Assembly: GCA_031119395.1 (NCBI GenBank)
Contig: JAVHYA010000001.1
Span: 62,001-126,000 of the forward strand
Direction of reading: 5' to 3'
From: Pseudomonadota bacterium
Lineage (GTDB): Bacteria > Pseudomonadota > Gammaproteobacteria > Burkholderiales > Burkholderiaceae_C
DNA: 64,000 bases
Numbering within the stretch: position 1 is the first letter of the stretch; every line of letters begins with the position of its first letter. Position numbers and translations under genes: made by a program. The notes beneath the pieces are model-generated. The model was not told the origin of the DNA and did no database searches. It saw only the letters and a program-made list of their open reading frames with translations. Positions 4,407 to 63,332 of the stretch are shown here, in pieces.

Positions 4407-4470
4407 TTTGCTATCTTTTCGATAGCTGCCTGCGCCCGCCGCACGGGCGATACAGCCCGATTTCCTTCGA
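4407..4470 (+). repeat. Interspersed gatagc repeat, copy R1
   Basis: Copy 1 of eight. It begins with the small palindrome gctatcttttcgatagc (4410-4426), continues with a G+C-rich middle containing cgccgcacgggcg, and ends in ttccttcgaat. It fills the gap after the kinase gene; its last bases abut that gene's stop codon (4472-4474, minus strand). Orientation is defined with the palindromic end first. Confidence 0.8.
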
Positions 4471-4471
4471 A

Positions 4472-5908
4472 TCAGCGAGGCTGGCGCCGCAGCGCGTCCA
4501 ACAGCCGCGCCCGCTGCGCCGGGTCGTCGAGCTGCTGCGCCAGGAGCTCGTGCAGGTGCTGCGGCGAGCGCGCCTGGGCCAAGGCCTTCTTGAGCATGAT
4601 CCTGGCGATGGGGCCCAGCTCGCGCGACAGGGCCACGCGCGCATGCTCGACCACCTCCGCGCCGATGGGCGCCTGCACCGCCGCGCGGCCGACGGCTGCG
4701 CCGCCGGAGCCGAAGCCGGCGCTTCCGCCGGTGGGCGGCGCTGCGCTGCCGAAGCCGCTGCCGGCGGCGCCGATCAGGGTGATGAAGCGCGCCCGGTCGG
4801 CCGCGTCGGGGATGTGCTGGCTCAGCGCGTCCTGCAGCGCGCCCAGGTCGGTGGCGGTGCGTGCCGCCTCGCGCACCAGCACGCGGGCCATCGGGCCCAT
4901 GAACCGCGTGAGCGCCGCTTCCATCGGCGCGAGGCTGGCCGCGTCCCAGCGCGACGGAGCGGCCGAACCCGGACGGCTCGCGGCTCCCGAGGGCGGATGG
5001 CCGTCGGGCCGCCGCAGCGGCAGGTGCAGCGAGGCGACCACCGTCGCGTCGTCGGCCGCCGTGCCGACGTGCAATGCGCTGCGTTCGGCCAGCGCATCGC
5101 GGAACTCCTGCGCGCTGGCGAAGCGGGCCTGCGGCGCCTTGGCGAGCGCGCGCGCCACGATCGGATCGAAGGACGCGGGCACGGCCAGGCCCGGCAGCTG
5201 AGACGGTGGCTCGGGGTCCCTGTTGAGCACCCGGTACATCACGGCCTCCGCCGACTCGGCCGCGAAGGGCGAACGGCCGGTGAGCATGCGGTAGAGCAGC
5301 ACACCGGCCGCGAAGACGTCGACCCGGTGGTCGATGGCCTCGCCCAGGTACTGCTCCGGCGCCATGTAGCCCGGCGTGCCGATGGTGGCGGCCATCTGCG
5401 TGAGCGCAGCCGACTCGATGCGCGCGATGCCGAAATCCGTCACCTTGAGCAAGCCGTCGGTCGTCACGATGAGGTTGGCCGGCTTGATGTCGCGGTGCCA
5501 CACGCCGGCGCGGTGCGCGCAGCTCAGTGCGTCCAGCAGCTGCTGCATGAAGCGGATGACGGTGCCCTCGGGCAGGCGCGGCGTGGCACCCAGCACCTGC
5601 GCCAGGTCGCGCCCCTGCACGTACTCCATGGCGATGAAGGCGGTGGTGTCGTCCTCGCCGTACTCGTAGATGGCAACGATGCCCGGATGCGACAGCCGCC
5701 CCACCGCCTTGGCCTCGTTGCGAAAGCGCGCCGCCAGGTCGGTGCCGCCGTCGGGCTGCATCAGCGCCTTGCGGATGGTCTTGATCGCCACCGGCCGGTC
5801 GATGCCGGGATCGTGGCCCTTGTAGACCACGCCCATGGCGCCCTCGCCCAGCACCTGGACGATGTCGTACTTGCCGAGCCTCCGGGGGTGCTCCATGGGC
5901 AAGGCCAT
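4472..5908 (-). CDS. Soluble Hanks-type serine/threonine protein kinase with duplicated C-terminal domain
   Basis: Predicted cytoplasmic Ser/Thr protein kinase, 478 aa. The kinase domain (about 14-275) is complete: glycine loop LGEGAMGVVYKG, Lys43 in VAIKTI, HRDIKPANL (138-146), DFG (158-160) and APEQ (183-186). There is no transmembrane segment or PASTA domain. After a linker, the C-terminal part holds two related ~52-residue helical units (329-381 and 419-474), both with GPxARxxxxxA and a later RARxxxxL pattern. This domain recalls one found at the C-terminus of other beta-proteobacterial kinases. It lies downstream of the haem-sensor gene on the same strand, 179 bp away, so it may be the output partner of that sensor (inference). 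The start at 5908 is the first ATG and fits the beginning of the kinase fold. Confidence 0.92.
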   Translation of the reverse strand: MALPMEHPRRLGKYDIVQVLGEGAMGVVYKGHDPGIDRPVAIKTIRKALMQPDGGTDLAARFRNEAKAVGRLSHPGIVAIYEYGEDDTTAFIAMEYVQGRDLAQVLGATPRLPEGTVIRFMQQLLDALSCAHRAGVWHRDIKPANLIVTTDGLLKVTDFGIARIESAALTQMAATIGTPGYMAPEQYLGEAIDHRVDVFAAGVLLYRMLTGRSPFAAESAEAVMYRVLNRDPEPPSQLPGLAVPASFDPIVARALAKAPQARFASAQEFRDALAERSALHVGTAADDATVVASLHLPLRRPDGHPPSGAASRPGSAAPSRWDAASLAPMEAALTRFMGPMARVLVREAARTATDLGALQDALSQHIPDAADRARFITLIGAAGSGFGSAAPPTGGSAGFGSGGAAVGRAAVQAPIGAEVVEHARVALSRELGPIARIMLKKALAQARSPQHLHELLAQQLDDPAQRARLLDALRRQPR

Positions 5909-19920: not shown

Positions 19921-19984
19921 GCTTCTCTTTTGATAGCATGCCGCGCACGCCCGACGGGCGCTCCAGCCACTTTTCCTTCGAATC
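19921..19984 (+). repeat. Interspersed gatagc repeat, copy R2
   Basis: Begins gcttctcttttgatagc (19921-19937), has cgcccgacgggcg in the middle and ends ttccttcgaat, closely matching R1. It occupies most of the 101-bp gap between the MOSC start and the extensin-like gene, whose ATG lies 2 bp beyond the repeat. Confidence 0.8.
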
Positions 19985-26069: not shown

Positions 26070-27053
26070 ATGTCCGCTCCCGACCCCGACCCCATGAACG
26101 CCCGCACCGAACCCGACCTGCTGCAAGCCGCCACGACGATGCATTCGCCTGCCCGCCTGTCCAACACGCACCTCGACGCGCTCGAGGAAGAAGCGATCTT
26201 CATCCTGCGCGAAGTCGCCGCCGCCTTCGAGCGCCCGACGCTGCTGTTCTCGGGCGGCAAGGACTCGCTGGTGCTGCTCAAGTGCGCCGAGAAGGCCTTC
26301 GGCAGCGGCCGCCTGCCCTACCCGCTGCTGATGATCGACACCGGCCACAACTTCCCCGAGGTGACGGCCTTCCGCGACCAGCGCGCGAAGGAGCTGGGCG
26401 CCGAGCTGATCGTGCGCAGCGTGGAAGACTCGATGGCGCGCGGCACCGTGCGCCTGGCGCATCCCGGCGAGTCGCGCAACGTGCACCAGTCGGTCACGCT
26501 GCTCGAAGCCATCGAGGAATTCCGCTTCGACGCGCTGATCGGCGGCGCGCGCCGCGACGAGGAGAAGGCCCGCGCCAAGGAGCGCATCTTTTCCCACCGC
26601 GACGCCTTCGGCCAGTGGCAACCCAAGGACCAGCGCCCCGAGCTGTGGACGCTGTTCAACACGCGACTCGCGCCGGGCGAGCACTTCCGCGTCTTCCCGA
26701 TCAGCAACTGGACCGAGCTGGACGTGTGGCAGTACATCGAGCGCGAGGCGATCGAGCTGCCCTCGATCTACTACACGCACCAGCGCGAGGTGGTCGAGCG
26801 CAAGGGCCTGCTGATGCCGGTGACCGAACTCACGCCGCCGCGCGAGGGCGAGAAGGTGGAAGTTCGCAACGTGCGCTTCCGCACCGTGGGTGACATCACC
26901 TGCACCGCGCCGGTCGAGAGCCTGGCCGCCGATGCGGGCGACGTGGTGATCGAGACGCTGGCCGCCGAAGTGAGCGAGCGCGGCGCCACGCGCATGGACG
27001 ACAAGACATCCGAGGCTTCCATGGAGAAGCGCAAGAAGGACGGGTATTTCTGA
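26070..27053 (+). CDS. cysD: Sulfate adenylyltransferase subunit 2
   Basis: Catalytic subunit of ATP sulfurylase, which makes adenylyl sulfate from sulfate and ATP with CysN. The PP-loop LFSGGKDSLVLL, the MIDTGHNFPEV segment and the GGARRDEEKARAKERIFSHR motif are all present; the C-terminus ends MEKRKKDGYF as in other CysD. At 327 aa it has a ~25-residue N-terminal excess over E. coli CysD; ATGs at 26094 and 26139 are alternative starts, the last closest to the conserved beginning. No clear ribosome-binding site precedes any of them. It overlaps cysN by one base (TGATG). Confidence 0.94.
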   Translation: MSAPDPDPMNARTEPDLLQAATTMHSPARLSNTHLDALEEEAIFILREVAAAFERPTLLFSGGKDSLVLLKCAEKAFGSGRLPYPLLMIDTGHNFPEVTAFRDQRAKELGAELIVRSVEDSMARGTVRLAHPGESRNVHQSVTLLEAIEEFRFDALIGGARRDEEKARAKERIFSHRDAFGQWQPKDQRPELWTLFNTRLAPGEHFRVFPISNWTELDVWQYIEREAIELPSIYYTHQREVVERKGLLMPVTELTPPREGEKVEVRNVRFRTVGDITCTAPVESLAADAGDVVIETLAAEVSERGATRMDDKTSEASMEKRKKDGYF

Positions 27054-28453
27054 TGACCACCGCTACGAATTCGATAGCTGCTCCCGCAGGCGCCGCGGGC
27101 GCTGCAGGCACTTTGGGCTCTGAATCTACCGCCCGGGGCGACACCGGCACCGCGCTGCGCTTCATCACCTGCGGCAGCGTGGACGACGGCAAGAGCACGC
27201 TCATCGGCCGTCTGCTGGTGGACAGCAAGACGGTGCTGCAGGATCAGCTCGCCGGCGTGCAGCGCAACGGCGAGACCGACCTGGCCCTCCTGACCGACGG
27301 CCTCTCGGCCGAGCGCGAACAGGGCATCACGATCGACGTCGCGTACCGCTACTTCTCGACCGCCAAGCGCAAGTTCATCATCGGCGACGCACCGGGCCAC
27401 GAGCAGTACACCCGCAACATGGTGACGGCCGCCTCGAGCGCCGATGCCGCGGTGGTGCTGGTCGACGCGACCAAGCTCAAGTGGGCGGCCGAGGTTGGGG
27501 ATGGCGAGGTCGTCGTGCGCGACCTGCTGCCGCAGACCCGCCGCCACACGCTGCTGGCGCACCTGCTGCGCGTGCAGTCGATCGTGGTGGCCGTGAACAA
27601 GCTCGACGCCATCGACGACGCGGAGCTCGCCTTCGAACGCATCAGCGCGGCACTCGACGCTTTCGCCGAGCAGGCGGGCGTGCAGTTCACGGCCATCGTG
27701 CCCGTGTCGGCCCTCAAGGGCTGGAACGTGACCTCGCGCCACAGCGAGGGCAGCACCGGCTGGGCCGGCTACCAGGGCCCGAGCCTGCTCGAGCTGCTCG
27801 AGGGCCTGCCGGTGACGGCACAGGACGACGCCGTGCCCTTCGCGTTCCCGGTGCAGTGGGTCGAGAAGTTCTCGGGATCGTCCGACACCAGCCAGGGCCG
27901 CCGCATCTTCTGGGGCCGCGTGGCCAGCGGCCAGGTCGTGCCGGGCCAGCGCATCGCCATCCTGCCCAGCGGCCAGCACGCCACCGTGGCGCGCGTGCTC
28001 ACCCACACGCGCCAGGAGCGCGGCGTGCACGCCGGCCACAGCGCCGGCATCGTGCTCGACCGCGAGGTGGACGTGTCGCGCGGCGACTGGCTGCTCGAGC
28101 CCGAGGCCTTCCAGCCCGTGCGCGAGATCACCGCCACCGTGGCCTGGCTCGACGACGAGCCGCTGGTGCCGGGCCGCGTGTACTGGGCGCTGCAGGGGCA
28201 CCGCTGGGTCAAGGCCAAGGTCGCGCGCATCGCCCATCGGCTGAACGTCAACACGCTGGAGGCGGAAGACGCGACCCAACTGGAGCCCAACGCCATCGGC
28301 GAAGTGGTGCTCGCGCTGCAGCAGCCGCTGGCCGTGCTGCCCTTCACGCAGTCGCGCGCGCTGGGGTCGATGGTGCTGGTCGACACGGCCTCGCACCGCA
28401 CCTCGGCGGCCGTGCTTGTCCGCGCGCCGGCACAGCCGGCGCCGAGCCCTTAA
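27053..28453 (+). CDS. cysN: Sulfate adenylyltransferase subunit 1 (GTPase)
   Basis: 466-aa GTPase subunit of ATP sulfurylase; GTP hydrolysis drives adenylyl sulfate formation by CysD. G1 GSVDDGKST (41-49), the switch region EREQGITIDVAYRYF, G3 DAPGHEQY and G4 NKLD are intact. There is no C-terminal APS-kinase domain. The first ~30 residues are odd: residues 4-25 (Ala/Gly/Ser-rich) are encoded by interspersed repeat R3, so the true conserved protein starts near ALRFITCGSVD. The TAA stop lies within a taaaat -10-like hexamer for fdxA. It shares one base with the cysD stop. Confidence 0.94.
   Translation: MTTATNSIAAPAGAAGAAGTLGSESTARGDTGTALRFITCGSVDDGKSTLIGRLLVDSKTVLQDQLAGVQRNGETDLALLTDGLSAEREQGITIDVAYRYFSTAKRKFIIGDAPGHEQYTRNMVTAASSADAAVVLVDATKLKWAAEVGDGEVVVRDLLPQTRRHTLLAHLLRVQSIVVAVNKLDAIDDAELAFERISAALDAFAEQAGVQFTAIVPVSALKGWNVTSRHSEGSTGWAGYQGPSLLELLEGLPVTAQDDAVPFAFPVQWVEKFSGSSDTSQGRRIFWGRVASGQVVPGQRIAILPSGQHATVARVLTHTRQERGVHAGHSAGIVLDREVDVSRGDWLLEPEAFQPVREITATVAWLDDEPLVPGRVYWALQGHRWVKAKVARIAHRLNVNTLEAEDATQLEPNAIGEVVLALQQPLAVLPFTQSRALGSMVLVDTASHRTSAAVLVRAPAQPAPSP
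27062..27126 (+). repeat. Interspersed gatagc repeat, copy R3, inside cysN
   Basis: Begins gctacgaattcgatagc (27062-27078), middle gccgcgggcgctgcaggc, end gctctgaatc. It is fully within the first 25 codons of cysN and read in the frame GCT-ACG-AAT-TCG-ATA-GCT. Confidence 0.78.
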
Positions 28454-29984: not shown

Positions 29985-30078
29985 GGCGTTCGCTGGGGGT
30001 GTTGGCCCTGCCGCTGCAGGCGCCGACTGAGAGAGTCCCTTTGAACCTGACTGAGGTAATCCTCGCGCAGGGAAGCCG
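29985..30078 (+). promoter_or_regulatory. TPP riboswitch upstream of cytX
   Basis: The thi-box core is clear: gctgggggtgt at 29992, ctgagagag (30027-30035), ctttgaacctgactgaggt and gcgcagggaagc. These are the conserved thiamine-pyrophosphate aptamer elements. A possible -10, tagaat, is at 29957-29962. A ctgccg/cggcag hairpin (30085-30101) follows and could belong to the expression platform; cytX starts at 30171. Upstream, 29865-29984 holds no clear gene. By analogy, bound TPP should lower cytX expression. Confidence 0.93.
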
Positions 30079-30170
30079 ATCCGGCTGCCGACCTCCGGCA
30101 GGGACCCGTCCGCATCGATGGGCCGTTCCGGAAACCGCCCACCTGCCATGACTTTGCACGGAGCAAATCG

Positions 30171-35427: not shown

Positions 35428-35465
35428 ACTCCGCCCACCCCGGCGCAGCGCCTGTCGCCGCGCCG

Positions 35466-35549
35466 GGGCCGCTAGGGGTGTTCACCGCGAGGTGGACTGA
35501 GAGAGTCCCTTTGAACCTGATTGAGGTAATCCTCGCGCAGGGAAGCAGA
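35466..35549 (+). promoter_or_regulatory. TPP riboswitch upstream of TonB-dependent receptor
   Basis: Contains ctaggggtgttcaccg, gactgagagag, ccctttgaacctgattgag and cctcgcgcagggaagc, virtually identical in the core to the cytX riboswitch. It begins 40 bp after the thiE stop and precedes a TonB-dependent receptor gene by about 85 bp. It should reduce receptor expression when TPP is plentiful. Confidence 0.93.
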
Positions 35550-35632
35550 TCCGTCGGCCGCACAGCATCTCTCGGCCTGTGCCTCGAGGCCCACGCATCC
35601 CGCCCCCCTGCCATCGCGTCTTCGAGCACGTC

Positions 35633-37819
35633 ATGGCGATTCCGCACCGTCCCCTTCCGAAATTCAAGCCGAAAAGGCCTGTAGCGCCCGCCCCGCTTGC
35701 GCTGGCAGCTATGGTTTTGATAGCAAACGCCGCTCATGCCCAAGCGCCTGCGGCCGACACCCTGCCTGCCGTCACCATCGACGAGCGCGGCACGCCGCCT
35801 TCTGCCGACGTGAGCGGCTTCGGCGACCTGCCGCTGAAGGACGTGCCGATCTCGGCCACGGTGATCGACAGCGCGCAGCTGCAGTCCAGCGGCGCGCGGC
35901 GCCTGGCGGACCTCACGCAGTTCGACGCCTCGGTCACCGACGCCTACAACTCCGCCGGCTACTGGGACTTCCTGAGCGTGCGCGGCTTCGTGCTGGACAA
36001 CCGCTTCAACTACCGGCGAGAGGGCCTGCCGATCAGCGCCGAGACGGCCATCCCGCTGGACAACAAGGAACGCGTCGAGATCCTGCGCGGCACCAGCGGC
36101 ATCCAGGCCGGCACCAGCGCGCCCGGCGGGCTGGTCAACTACGTCGTGAAGCGCCCCACCGAGCAGGACCTGCGCGAGGTGCGCACCGAGGTCTCGGGCC
36201 GCGGCAGCCTGCTGGGCGCCGTCGACCTGGGCGGGCGTTTCGGCGCGGACCGGCAGTTCGGCTATCGGCTCAACGTGGTGAGCGAACGGCTGAAGCCGCG
36301 CACCTTCGACCTGGACGGCAACCGGCACATGCTCTCGCTCGCGGCCGACTGGCGCCTCACGCGCGATTCGCTGCTGGAGGCCGAGTTCGAATCCAGCCAC
36401 AAGGCCCAGCCGAGCCAGAACGGCTTCAGCCTGCTGGGCAACCTGCTGCCGCGTGCGGGCGACCCGCGGCTGAACCTCAACAACCAGGCCTGGTCGCAGC
36501 CTTCGGTCTTCGATGCCTTCACCGGCACCGTGCGCTTCACGCAGGCGCTCAACGCCGACTGGCGCTGGAGCGCCCAGATCGGCCAGCAGCGACTCAAGAG
36601 CGACGACCGGCTGGCCTACGCCTTCGGCTGCGGCATGGAAGCGCGCTACGACCGCTACTGCTCGGACGGCAGCTTCGACTTCTACGACTTCCGCAGCGAG
36701 AACGAGCGCCGCCGCCAGACCGCGGGCAACCTGGCCCTGAAGGGCCGCTTCGCCACCGGCGCCGTGCAGCACGATGTGAGCGTGGGCCTGCTGGCCAGCC
36801 GCGTGCGCAACCGCTTCCAGGACCAGGCCTACAACTACGTGGGCAGCGGCAACGTGTGGGGCACGGCGATCGTCCCGGCCGACCCGACGCTCACCTCGCC
36901 CAACACCGACCGCGACGAGCGATCCACCGAGCTGTCGGTGCAGGACGCGATCCGCTGGACCGACCGCCTGACCACCTGGGTGGGCGTGCGCCACACGCAG
37001 TTCGCGCGCGACAGCGTGCGCACCGACGGCACGCGGCCGACGGGCTACAAGGACGGCGTGACCACGCCCTGGGTCGCGCTCAGCTACGCCTTCCAGCCGG
37101 AGCTGATGGCCTATGCGAGCTGGGGCAAGGGCGTGGAATCGCAGCTGGTGCCCGGCAAGCCGCAGCAGTACACCAACGCCGGCGAGGCACTGCCGCCGCT
37201 GGCCTCGCGCCAGTGGGAGCTCGGGCTCAAGGGCGGCAGCGGCAGCCCGGCCCAGGGCCTGAACTGGCAGCTGGCGTACTTCAATATCGTGCGGCCGATG
37301 ACCAACATCGACGCCTGCGAGAACACGGGCGCCGAGTGCACCGGCCGCTACGACGGCACGGCACGCCACCGCGGCCTGGAGGCCAACGTGCAGTGGGCCA
37401 GCGGCCCCTGGCGGCTGGCCGGCGGCGCCACCTTCATCGACGCCAAGCGCCGCGGCAGCAGCTTCTCGCCGGAGATCAACGGCCAGCGCCCGGTCAACGT
37501 GCCGGACCAGGTCTGGCGCCTGCGCGCCGCCTACCGCGTGGCCGCGGTGCCGGGCCTGGAGCTGCAAGCCCTGCTCTCGCGCGAGGGCCGGCGCAACGTC
37601 CTGGCCGACGGCAGCCTGCGCCTGCCGGCCTGGACCCGGGTGGACACCGCCCTGCGCTACGACACGAAGATCGGCCGCACCGCGACCACCTGGACGCTGG
37701 GCGTGGAGAACCTCTTCGATCGCCGCTACTGGAAGGAGTCCCCCAACCAGTACGGCCACGTGTACCTGTTCCCCGGCGCGCCGCGGACCTTGCGGCTGGG
37801 CCTGACGGCGTCGCTTTGA
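35633..37819 (+). CDS. TonB-dependent outer-membrane receptor, TPP-regulated (thiamine or precursor uptake)
   Basis: 728-aa siderophore-type receptor. The signal peptide runs over residues 1-36 (cleavage after AHA), a TonB-box-like LPAVTID is at the mature start, then a plug domain (DVPISATVIDSAQL, VEILRGTSGIQAGTSAPGGLVNYVVKRP) and a beta-barrel ending in an aromatic-poor TASL. LFDRRYW near the end is typical. The TPP riboswitch upstream points to thiamine, HMP or thiazole uptake across the outer membrane rather than iron. ATG at 35633 is chosen for the signal peptide. Notably, residues 9-31, including most of the hydrophobic core, are encoded by interspersed repeat R4. Confidence 0.92.
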   Translation: MAIPHRPLPKFKPKRPVAPAPLALAAMVLIANAAHAQAPAADTLPAVTIDERGTPPSADVSGFGDLPLKDVPISATVIDSAQLQSSGARRLADLTQFDASVTDAYNSAGYWDFLSVRGFVLDNRFNYRREGLPISAETAIPLDNKERVEILRGTSGIQAGTSAPGGLVNYVVKRPTEQDLREVRTEVSGRGSLLGAVDLGGRFGADRQFGYRLNVVSERLKPRTFDLDGNRHMLSLAADWRLTRDSLLEAEFESSHKAQPSQNGFSLLGNLLPRAGDPRLNLNNQAWSQPSVFDAFTGTVRFTQALNADWRWSAQIGQQRLKSDDRLAYAFGCGMEARYDRYCSDGSFDFYDFRSENERRRQTAGNLALKGRFATGAVQHDVSVGLLASRVRNRFQDQAYNYVGSGNVWGTAIVPADPTLTSPNTDRDERSTELSVQDAIRWTDRLTTWVGVRHTQFARDSVRTDGTRPTGYKDGVTTPWVALSYAFQPELMAYASWGKGVESQLVPGKPQQYTNAGEALPPLASRQWELGLKGGSGSPAQGLNWQLAYFNIVRPMTNIDACENTGAECTGRYDGTARHRGLEANVQWASGPWRLAGGATFIDAKRRGSSFSPEINGQRPVNVPDQVWRLRAAYRVAAVPGLELQALLSREGRRNVLADGSLRLPAWTRVDTALRYDTKIGRTATTWTLGVENLFDRRYWKESPNQYGHVYLFPGAPRTLRLGLTASL
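35659..35724 (-). repeat. Interspersed gatagc repeat, copy R4, inside receptor signal peptide
   Basis: Reverse orientation: aattcaagccgaaaaggcc at the far end, cgcccgccccgc in the middle and the palindromic end gctatggttttgatagc at 35708-35724. It codes for residues 9-31 of the receptor precursor, read GCT-ATG-GTT-TTG-ATA-GCA. Confidence 0.8.
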
Positions 37820-44604: not shown

Positions 44605-44666
44605 TCTGGAAGAAATCGGCCTCCAGCGCCCGTCCAGCCTGCGCGGGCAGCTATCGTTCCGATAGC
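44605..44666 (-). repeat. Interspersed gatagc repeat, copy R5
   Basis: Reverse orientation: tctggaagaaatcggcctcc, then agcgcccgtccagcc, and the perfect palindromic end gctatcgttccgatagc at 44650-44666. It lies in the 168-bp gap between pobA and aat. Confidence 0.82.
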
Positions 44667-52858: not shown

Positions 52859-52913
52859 CAAATTGGCCTCCAGCGCCCGTGGATCGTGCGGGAGCAGCTA
52901 TCGATTTCATAGC
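52859..52913 (-). repeat. Interspersed gatagc repeat, copy R6, abutting pssA start
   Basis: Reverse orientation: aattggcctccagcgcccg, then gatcgtgcggg, palindromic end gctatcgatttcatagc at 52897-52913. The repeat touches the pssA ATG, and its minus-strand ggaggcc is at Shine-Dalgarno distance. Confidence 0.78.
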
Positions 52914-59011: not shown

Positions 59012-59587
59012 ATGCCCCCGCAGTCGACCTCGCCTCCGTCTCCCATGCCAAATACGGCTGCAGCCCCCGCCGACAGGGCGCCGGCAGCTCCTGAATTGAT
59101 AGCACCCGGCCTCTGGCGGCGCATGGCCTGCTGGCTGTACGAGGGCATGCTCATGTTCGCCGTGGTGTTCGTGGCCGGCTGGCTGTTCAGCACGCTGGGC
59201 CAGATGCGCGACGCGATGGACGCGCGCCGCCACCTGCTCCAGGCCTTCCTGTTCGTGGTCTTCGGCATCTACTTCACCTGGTTCTGGTCGCGCGGCCAGA
59301 CGCTCGCCATGAAAACCTGGGGTCTGCGTGTGGTCGACCGCCACGGCGCGCCCGTCACGCAGTTGCGCGCGCTCGGCCGCTACCTGCTCAGCTGGATCTG
59401 GTTTTTGCCCCCGCTGGCCGCGCTGTCGCTGCTGCCCTTCAGGATTTCGGGCGGCGAGTCGGTGGTCCTGATCGCCGGCTGGGTCATCGTCTGGGCGCTG
59501 CTGGCCCGCTTCCACCCGCAACGCCAGTTCTGGCACGACGCCTGGGCCGGCACGCGCCTCGTCGCGTCCAAGCCCCTGAGCCGATGA
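59012..59587 (+). CDS. RDD-family membrane protein
   Basis: 191-aa membrane protein. The RDD domain (about 35-180) has three to four hydrophobic helices, with LYEGMLMFAVVFVAGWLF, the FWSRGQTLAMKTWGLRVVD motif after helix 2 and QFWHDAWAGTRLV at the end. RDD proteins are of uncertain function (some transport roles known). The first ~35 residues are Pro/Ala-rich and residues 13-31 are encoded by interspersed repeat R7. ATG 59012 or 59045 may start. The stop overlaps dgkA (ATGA). Confidence 0.85.
   Translation: MPPQSTSPPSPMPNTAAAPADRAPAAPELIAPGLWRRMACWLYEGMLMFAVVFVAGWLFSTLGQMRDAMDARRHLLQAFLFVVFGIYFTWFWSRGQTLAMKTWGLRVVDRHGAPVTQLRALGRYLLSWIWFLPPLAALSLLPFRISGGESVVLIAGWVIVWALLARFHPQRQFWHDAWAGTRLVASKPLSR
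59049..59103 (-). repeat. Interspersed gatagc repeat, copy R7, inside RDD gene
   Basis: Reverse orientation: aaatacggctgcagccccc, gccgacagggcgccgg, and end gctcctgaattgatagc (59087-59103). It is more diverged than the others but keeps the end and spacing. It codes for residues 13-31 of the RDD protein. Confidence 0.65.
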
Positions 59588-62124: not shown

Positions 62125-63332
62125 GCCGCGAGCCCGTGCTGCGGGTCCACACCGACCCGTCGGAGATCGACGCCGCCGCCTGGGACGCGCTGCTGGACGC
62201 CCAGGCCGAGCCCAGCCCCTTCATGCGGCATGCCTACCTGGCCGCCCTGCACGCCAGCGGCAGCGCCACGCCCGAGACCGGCTGGGCGCCTGCCTTCGCG
62301 ACGCTGTGGCGCGGCAAGGTGCTGAAGGCGGCCTGCCCGCTGTACGCCAAGGACCACTCGTACGGCGAATACGTCTTCGACTGGGCCTGGGCCAACGCCT
62401 ACGAGCAGCATGGCCTGGCCTACTACCCCAAGGCCGTGTGCGCGGTGCCCTTCACGCCCGTGCCCGGGGCGCGGCTGCTGGCCGTCGACGCCGACCACCG
62501 CGCGCTGCTGGTGCAGGGCCTGGTGCAGTGGTGCAAGCAGATGGAGCTGTCGTCGCTGCACCTGCTCTTCGGCGCCGAGGACGACATCGCCGCCTGCGAG
62601 GCCGCCGGCCTCATGCTGCGCCACACGGTCCAGTTCCACTGGAAGAACGAGTCGCCTGGCGACCCGTCTGCGCGCTACGCCGACATCGACGCCTTCCTCG
62701 CCAGCCTCTCGCAGGACAAGCGCAAGAAGATCCGCCAGGAGCGCCGCAAGGTGCGCGACGCCGGCGTGAGCTTCCGCTGGGCGCGCGGCACCGACATCAC
62801 CGAGGCGGACTGGGACTTCTTCTACCGCTGCTATGCCCGCACGTACCGCGAGCACGGCAACCCGCCCTACCTCACGCGCGATTTCTTCCGCCGCCAGGCG
62901 CAGACCATGCCGCAGGCGTGGCTGCTCTTCACCGCCGAACGCGAAGGCAAGCCGATTGCTACAAGTTTGATAGCGCTTCGCGCAGACGGGGCGGGCGTTC
63001 CAGGCCGATCTGATTCCAAAAGTGAGTCTGTCGCGTACGGCCGCTACTGGGGCGCACTGGAGCGGGTGGACTGCCTGCATTTCGAGGCCTGCTACTACCA
63101 GCCCATCGAATGGTGCATCGCGCACGGCGTGGCGCGCTTCGAGGGCGGCGCCCAGGGCGAGCACAAGATGGCCCGCGCCCTGATGCCGGTCAAGACGACC
63201 AGCGCCCACTGGCTGGCGCACCCGTCCTTCGCCGATGCGGTGGAGCGCTTCCTCGAGCGCGAAGGCGCCGGGATCGAGAACTACATGGAGCACCTGGAGG
63301 CGCGCAGCCCCTTCCGCGCGCCGACGACCTGA
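62121..63332 (+). CDS. FemAB/GNAT-like acyltransferase (COG3146, 'peptidogalycan' type) with repeat-derived insertion
   Basis: 403 aa. Matches the widespread proteobacterial family of double-GNAT FemAB-like proteins: SPFMRHAYLAALHASGS near the N-terminus, CPLYAKDHSYGEYVFDWAWA, the basic SQDKRKKIRQERRKV helix, and in the C-terminal half YGRYWGALERVDCLHFEACYYQ, EGGAQGEHKMARALMP. Relatives read straight from the IALxL strand into LYGRYWG; here residues 280-301 (including RADGAGVPGRSDSKS) are encoded by repeat R8, giving a ~15-residue extra loop. The function is unknown; acyl or aminoacyl transfer is inferred from the fold. Confidence 0.88.
   Translation: MSREPVLRVHTDPSEIDAAAWDALLDAQAEPSPFMRHAYLAALHASGSATPETGWAPAFATLWRGKVLKAACPLYAKDHSYGEYVFDWAWANAYEQHGLAYYPKAVCAVPFTPVPGARLLAVDADHRALLVQGLVQWCKQMELSSLHLLFGAEDDIAACEAAGLMLRHTVQFHWKNESPGDPSARYADIDAFLASLSQDKRKKIRQERRKVRDAGVSFRWARGTDITEADWDFFYRCYARTYREHGNPPYLTRDFFRRQAQTMPQAWLLFTAEREGKPIATSLIALRADGAGVPGRSDSKSESVAYGRYWGALERVDCLHFEACYYQPIEWCIAHGVARFEGGAQGEHKMARALMPVKTTSAHWLAHPSFADAVERFLEREGAGIENYMEHLEARSPFRAPTT
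62958..63021 (+). repeat. Interspersed gatagc repeat, copy R8, inside FemAB-like gene
   Basis: gctacaagtttgatagc (62958-62974), then gcttcgcgcagacgggg, gcgggcgttccaggccg and end tgattccaaaa. It retains the full element and is read in the register GCT-ACA-AGT-TTG-ATA-GCG, adding residues 280-301 without a frameshift. Confidence 0.8.

Follow-up and report, generated by a model that had tools for sequence, protein, structure and literature searches.

In-frame repeats and signal peptides

Fusions of short repeats into bacterial reading frames are known (PMC10969869, PMC2759123). Rickettsia palindromic elements (RPEs), of approximately 150 bp, lie in frame in assorted genes (PMC10969869, PMC2229807). 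In Yersinia, the RU-2 repeat is located in frame at the N-terminus of YPO1552, where it forms part of a signal peptide predicted by SignalP with a score of 0.994; the passages concerned also give a prediction of 0.722 for YPO2495, name YE2643 with RU-1f, and state that the signal peptides of related proteins show no relationship to it (PMC2759123). Two motif pairs, GCTTAT(N)5AAGCG with 114 copies in Acidovorax ebreus and ATAGCT(N)22CAAAAG with 125 in Polaromonas naphthalenivorans, are presented in the relevant passages as potential novel motifs, mostly intergenic and near genes (PMC5217627). For signal-peptide gain and loss in Enterobacterales, the part of the study that describes an ISEScan search reports no transposable elements near N-termini (PMC5952966). 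The origin and replacement of signal peptides are poorly understood. In the open-licence literature searched, we found no paper linking the repeat described here to signal peptides, nor one on an intergenic repeat in Comamonadaceae.

A repeat copy in the leader of a TonB-dependent receptor

The window analysed here is a 64,000-nt stretch of genome G000, a 5.14 Mb genome near Xenophilus in the Comamonadaceae; coordinates are window positions unless a contig is named. Positions 35633..37819 (+ strand) encode a 728-aa TonB-dependent siderophore-receptor-type protein, with Plug and barrel domains and a TIGR01783 score of 272.4 bits, above the curated cut-off of 223.5. Its identity is 94-95% to three Xenophilus records and 96-97% to two further bacterial records. 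A TPP riboswitch aptamer (35464..35560, + strand; Rfam RF00059, 61.1 bits, gathering 54.3) is located 5' of the gene and, on this side of the receptor gene, thiG lies farther 5' than the riboswitch; no match for thiE was found after thiG in the stretch searched. Based on the riboswitch and this neighbourhood, we infer that the receptor is thiamine-related. Elsewhere in the window, positions 30025-30090 are 94% identical to the riboswitch core at 35495-35560 and fall below the Rfam gathering threshold for reporting.

An earlier note on this DNA had placed a repeat element within the receptor leader at 35659-35724. The element is there, as indicated both by a direct repeat match (78% identity over 54 nt between 35671-35724 and the copy at 44613) and by a column profile of 137 aligned G000 copies, which defines a conserved span of 65 nt and moves the borders by two to three bases, to 35662..35726 on the + strand. 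This copy, R4, is the fourth along the window. Scored with a profile that leaves it out and uses the remaining 136 copies, at least six of which are other leader copies, R4 reaches 84.4 bits, above their median of 76.0; once the four forward copies are set aside, no + strand 65-mer of the window exceeds -11.3 bits.

With ATG 35633 as the start, R4 encodes residues 11-31 of the precursor in frame (FKPKRPVAPAPLALAAMVLIA), together with one base of each adjoining codon, the last of codon 10 and the first of codon 32. The note had given residues 9-31, of which the end is right and the start moves to residue 11. It had also attributed the Lys/Arg-rich n-region and most of the hydrophobic core to the element; KPKR, a part of the n-region, and most of the core do lie within residues 11-31. 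The putative signal peptide, MAIPHRPLPKFKPKRPVAPAPLALAAMVLIANAAHA (35633..35740, + strand), would by our own reading be cleaved between AHA and QA. Under an ad hoc rule it has the features of a Sec signal peptide, with a positive n-region (net charge of +5 before the core), a hydrophobic core (best 11-aa mean hydropathy of 2.51) and small residues at -3/-1. The loop GGTTTTG (MVLI), found in both R4 and the BamB copy described below, accounts for the hydrophobicity of these two cores.

The repeat contains two hairpins, AGCGCCC...GGGCGC or similar and GCTAT-N7-ATAGC, with variants AGCGCTTAT...AAGCGC in other genera. A 42-nt pattern allowing up to three mismatches had 249 matches on each strand of G000 (498 in total) and the same pattern reversed, as a control, had none; a looser core had at least one match in 54 of 200 family genomes. 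Besides R4, the window contains forward copies at 44613..44666, 52860..52913 and 59050..59103, the last at an ORF start where it yields a non-signal N-terminus (MPNTAAAPADRAPAAPELIAP...), and - strand copies at 4410..4473, 19928..19984 (diverged), 27061..27109 and 62958..63021 (diverged). The copy at 27061..27109 follows ATG 27053 on the + strand and forms an ORF N-terminus, MTTATNSIAAPAGAAGAAGTLGSE; that N-terminus, within 27053-27130, is Ala-rich and is not a signal peptide, and the ORF resembles CysN, the large subunit of ATP sulfurylase. Start codons are in some cases adjacent to a copy or provided by it. In L029 (G000:C141), an ORF that presumably resembles RuvC, the repeat core ends directly before the ATG, and in L208 (G000:C62), which we assume to be PrmC-like, MADPQD is followed by 22 residues that the element encodes in a different frame, so that the N-terminus carries an insertion that does not look like a signal.

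In a sample of 100 zero-mismatch copies, not strictly random and classified by a heuristic rule, 75 fell outside the coding classes, 7 were intragenic, 14 lay at other N-termini and 4 were called as leaders, one of which (L029) was dubious and was dropped. From this tally, leaders make up a few percent of copies. In being a short, high-copy palindrome that is mainly extragenic by this heuristic sample, the repeat resembles REPs, the palindromes mobilised by RAYT transposases. Terminal inverted repeats of ~15-30 bp, as in a MITE, are absent from a span that by eye runs from ~TTTCRAGCC to ~ATAGCAA. G000 contains one PF01797 match (L325:1462-2218, G000:C15) with a diverged repeat copy (13.9 bits) directly 3' of the gene, and this Y1/RAYT-type transposase is a candidate mobiliser, to be taken as a lead only.

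Leaders built from the repeat in other genes

The earlier note regarded the receptor as a rare case, which it is not: reading copies in context identified nine genes in G000 with element leaders, in two orientations. Four use the forward frame, namely the receptor, a BamB-like lipoprotein (L024, MNFKRFSAPAPVLRAGAAMVLIAVAASIAACSG), TctC (L209) and a protein resembling amidohydrolases (L215; 26.3 bits against a Pfam cut-off of 26.4). Five use the reverse frame: a 150-aa protein with no Pfam match (L277), a Chalcone_3 protein (L285, whose start we read as a GTG next to the repeat), SIMPL (L296), a solute-binding protein (L301) and DctP (L380, with the Pfam name taken from its G207 orthologue L289). 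Relatives contain orthologues of several of these genes, as well as L155 in G200 (13.4 bits), which by eye looks like a TctC-type protein. A TctC-like leader with a near-consensus element (77.5 bits) was also seen at L142 (G211:C1:774678-774758); the short pattern detected no dispersed copies in that genome, and gene transfer from a repeat-rich relative is possible.

For five non-receptor families we called the element where a leader scored above 0 bits and at most 1 of 300 permutations scored as high. The orthologues that passed were 5 of 18 for BamB (G000, G200, Variovorax G122, and Ramlibacter G164 and G047), 5 of 10 for the 150-aa protein, 5 of 20 for SIMPL (four near relatives and G162), 5 of 11 for the solute-binding protein, and 7 of 14 for DctP (G207, G071, G000, G164, G047 and two in G012). 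Four loci scored above 0 bits yet were matched by permutations: L356 (15/300), L282 (16/300), L370 (2/300) and L371 (43/300).

Orthologues that lack the element have, by eye, ordinary-looking leaders of their own. In the 150-aa family, the MNRC before and the QTQNE after the core are conserved; five genomes have the element between them, G202, G211, G201 and G177 have other sequence there, and G122 is a doubtful case (matched by 13/300 permutations). Because the flanks are conserved while the core varies, the core in this family was replaced and not added. Since element-free orthologues have leaders of their own, the element, as judged from these alignments, did not create export. The earlier note's proposal of a functional export signal is supported to the extent that the element forms part of the leader, with function suggested by conservation; the idea that export was newly given does not stand, as a leader of an existing kind appears to have been rewritten.

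Codon changes within the 21 element codons differ among families. SIMPL has a synonymous to non-synonymous ratio of 11:0 between G000 and G200, 4:1 and 4:3 against two other relatives, and 7:1 between two Ramlibacter genomes, and BamB has 7:1 between G000 and G200. As these changes are mostly synonymous, the peptide has been kept in both families. In G200 the DNA of both copies has eroded (66.0 to 33.1 bits for BamB, 57.5 to 15.0 for SIMPL) with the peptides retained. Outside SIMPL and BamB both types of change occur together or non-synonymous ones prevail, most of them exchanging one hydrophobic or small residue for another: 5 synonymous and 9 non-synonymous for the receptor against L065, and 5 and 10 for the 150-aa protein between G000 and G200. 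When the receptor was compared with three near relatives, each pair differed by 1 synonymous and 4 non-synonymous changes, and thus showed no excess of synonymous changes in the element region.

Four of the six frames of the repeat are as a rule open. Two frames, +1 and -2, have moderate hydrophobicity and read ~FxPNRPAAPxxxAxAAIxxIA forward and ~AIxxIAAxAxxAGAAGxFGL in reverse. The ad hoc signal rule was passed by 8 of 822 copy frames versus 167 of 18,000 random ones; unselected copies thus pass about as rarely as random sequence, which rules out the repeat as a ready-made signal peptide. Recruited copies therefore appear to have been tuned. One frame per strand is usually open and moderately hydrophobic, which would make copies tunable into leaders: a copy landing in a leader, or replacing one, could become a working leader through changes in its variable loops. 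The swap itself may have occurred by insertion plus deletion or by conversion.

Age of the receptor element and rival explanations

Taken together, we consider it very likely that R4 belongs to a palindromic, high-copy repeat family and that, after an ancient in-frame placement at the start of the receptor gene, it is now part of the signal peptide; in all, nine such genes were found in G000. Under this model, a copy of a mostly intergenic Comamonadaceae repeat would have come to lie in frame behind the TPP riboswitch. The charged region and core would now direct the nascent receptor to Sec, as in any Sec signal peptide, and leader peptidase would cut, probably after AHA.

We compared the receptor leaders with two nulls. 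In the first, 68 named rows received 300 synonymous recodings each; L102, L128, L129 and L130 of the 72 loci were dropped as partial or distant, and L063 and L064 represent one strain. Ten of these rows exceeded -5 bits; their z values were 5.2-11.1, and in each case 0 of 300 recodings scored as high: L061-L065 (Xenophilus or near relatives), L100 (Ramlibacter MAG), L069 (Variovorax MAG), L109, L131 and L118. The other Variovorax rows had z of -2.2 to 2.7, with the exception of L125 at 3.8. The stricter null permuted each leader's own synonymous codons (300 permutations each) and took 96 of 97 rows, some genomes being present twice; L099 was too short, and L102, L121, L128, L129 and L130 of 102 loci were left out. 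Here 23 of 96 rows scored above 0, and for 22 of the 23 no more than 1 of 300 permutations did as well. Across all families, rows that failed this null include L050 (46/300) and L290 (79/300) besides L282, L356 and L371 listed above.

After identical proteins and those shorter than 400 aa were removed, the element was called in 16 of 81 non-redundant rows, with 2 borderline and 63 uncalled. The called rows cover ten genus codes and the Variovorax MAG, or approximately 11 genera; uncalled rows include all Variovorax rows but one and four named Pseudorhodoferax rows. Among the orthologues examined, we did not see the same signal peptide without element DNA, which the earlier note had named as a result that would count against it; element-free N-termini differ, and the nearest look-alike leaders (many of them Variovorax, WPLSPVSRALAVVLF...) look either eroded or unrelated. 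Element DNA at the same receptor codons in approximately 11 genera supports an old placement. The suggestion that the repeat has otherwise been lost from genomes with a receptor copy is true only in part. The short pattern, which may count one palindromic site twice because both strands are searched, gave 19 matches in G047 (control 1), 27 in G164 (control 0), 4 in G042 (1), 3 in G054 (1), 4 in G134 (2), 5 in G169 (0) and none in G152.

The alternative that survives best is repeated arrival at the same receptor site, by re-insertion or gene conversion in separate lineages, to which we give roughly a one-in-four standing. It would explain why element-positive receptors are scattered, with 10 label changes on a quick tree, at least 8 of which its starred branches make unavoidable, and why R4 scores above the median copy despite its old-looking placement. 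Yet those 10 changes compare with a mean of 14.7 in 500 shuffles, none of which was as low, although near-copies contribute to this clustering and gains and losses are not distinguished by the count. A WSL motif with no counterpart in the repeat consensus is common to five rows, three called (L045, L048, L059), one borderline (L060) and one uncalled (L046), and sister rows pair a retained with an uncalled copy (L036/L034, L048/L046 and L052/L054). Because of the clustered label, the shared WSL and these sister pairs, we favour one old origin followed by many erasures, and frame and distance to the AQ site also agree, by eye, in the rows inspected.

It is improbable that the repeat acts here through hairpins in DNA or RNA, for instance by affecting how the mRNA folds between riboswitch and gene, with an incidental coding role. 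The presence of a TPP riboswitch fits such a role, as do two nearly invariant hairpins (98.5% of cells paired in 22 aligned copies, R4 included), but no compensatory changes were seen in these copies, whose pairs barely vary. Against a hairpin role, leader copies occur in both orientations and in unrelated genes, and in the G200 BamB and SIMPL copies it is the peptide that stays while the DNA erodes. Chance or convergence is still harder to credit. Signal peptides are Ala-rich, part of the repeat translates as Ala and Ile, and Ala-/Ile-rich leaders with AT-rich early codons could mimic it, a description that low-scoring rows could fit; called receptor rows nevertheless reach 1.5 to 84 bits, far above the best unrelated + strand 65-mer in 64 kb (-11.3), permutations of their own codons fall short of them, and uncalled leaders of the same families mostly have z of -2 to 3. 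Least credible is a true start at Met27 (MVLIANAAHAQ), the downstream start that the note had raised as an objection and that would leave the element mostly untranslated: there is an in-frame ATG at codon 27, but starting there leaves no charged n-region, and ATG 35633, upstream of the element, is supported by the recurrence of its GTC ATG GC context in four orthologues from other genera (L035, L037, L038, L045).

Comparison with known systems

Because one repeat marks the leaders of unrelated genes across genera, leaving comparable traces in each, leader replacement, tuning and erosion become traceable within a single family, and either strand of the palindrome can yield a leader. More tentatively, and with less than even confidence, the Comamonadaceae repeat may be a standing reservoir of signal-peptide modules, by which leaders are overwritten in either orientation and then tuned. 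If so, one intergenic repeat would drive a substantial share of the turnover of leaders in Comamonadaceae.

The enterobacterial RU-2 and RU-1f repeats resemble R4 in being short, in frame and part of a predicted leader, although the passages cited concern a few putative Yersinia proteins, whereas the present repeat is found in nine genes that include known families, in two orientations and several genera, and has been compared with two nulls (PMC2759123). As with RPEs, as described in the passages cited above, a palindromic repeat is translated in frame in unrelated genes. It is set apart from RPEs by description, as its conserved span of 65 nt is well short of ~150 bp; RPEs are described in assorted genes, and the recruited role here is that of a predicted export leader. 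The Acidovorax pair GCTTAT(N)5AAGCG fits hairpin 1 of the AAGCGC variants and ATAGCT is common to the second pair, so both probably belong to the same repeat family; the passages describing them are silent on signal peptides (PMC5217627). The Enterobacterales survey, in the part cited, asked the same question, whether transposable elements cause gain or loss of whole leaders (PMC5952966), and a 65-nt repeat would probably escape an IS finder. What is new relative to these systems is the recurrence in unrelated genes, the use of both orientations, the depth across genera and the comparison with explicit nulls.
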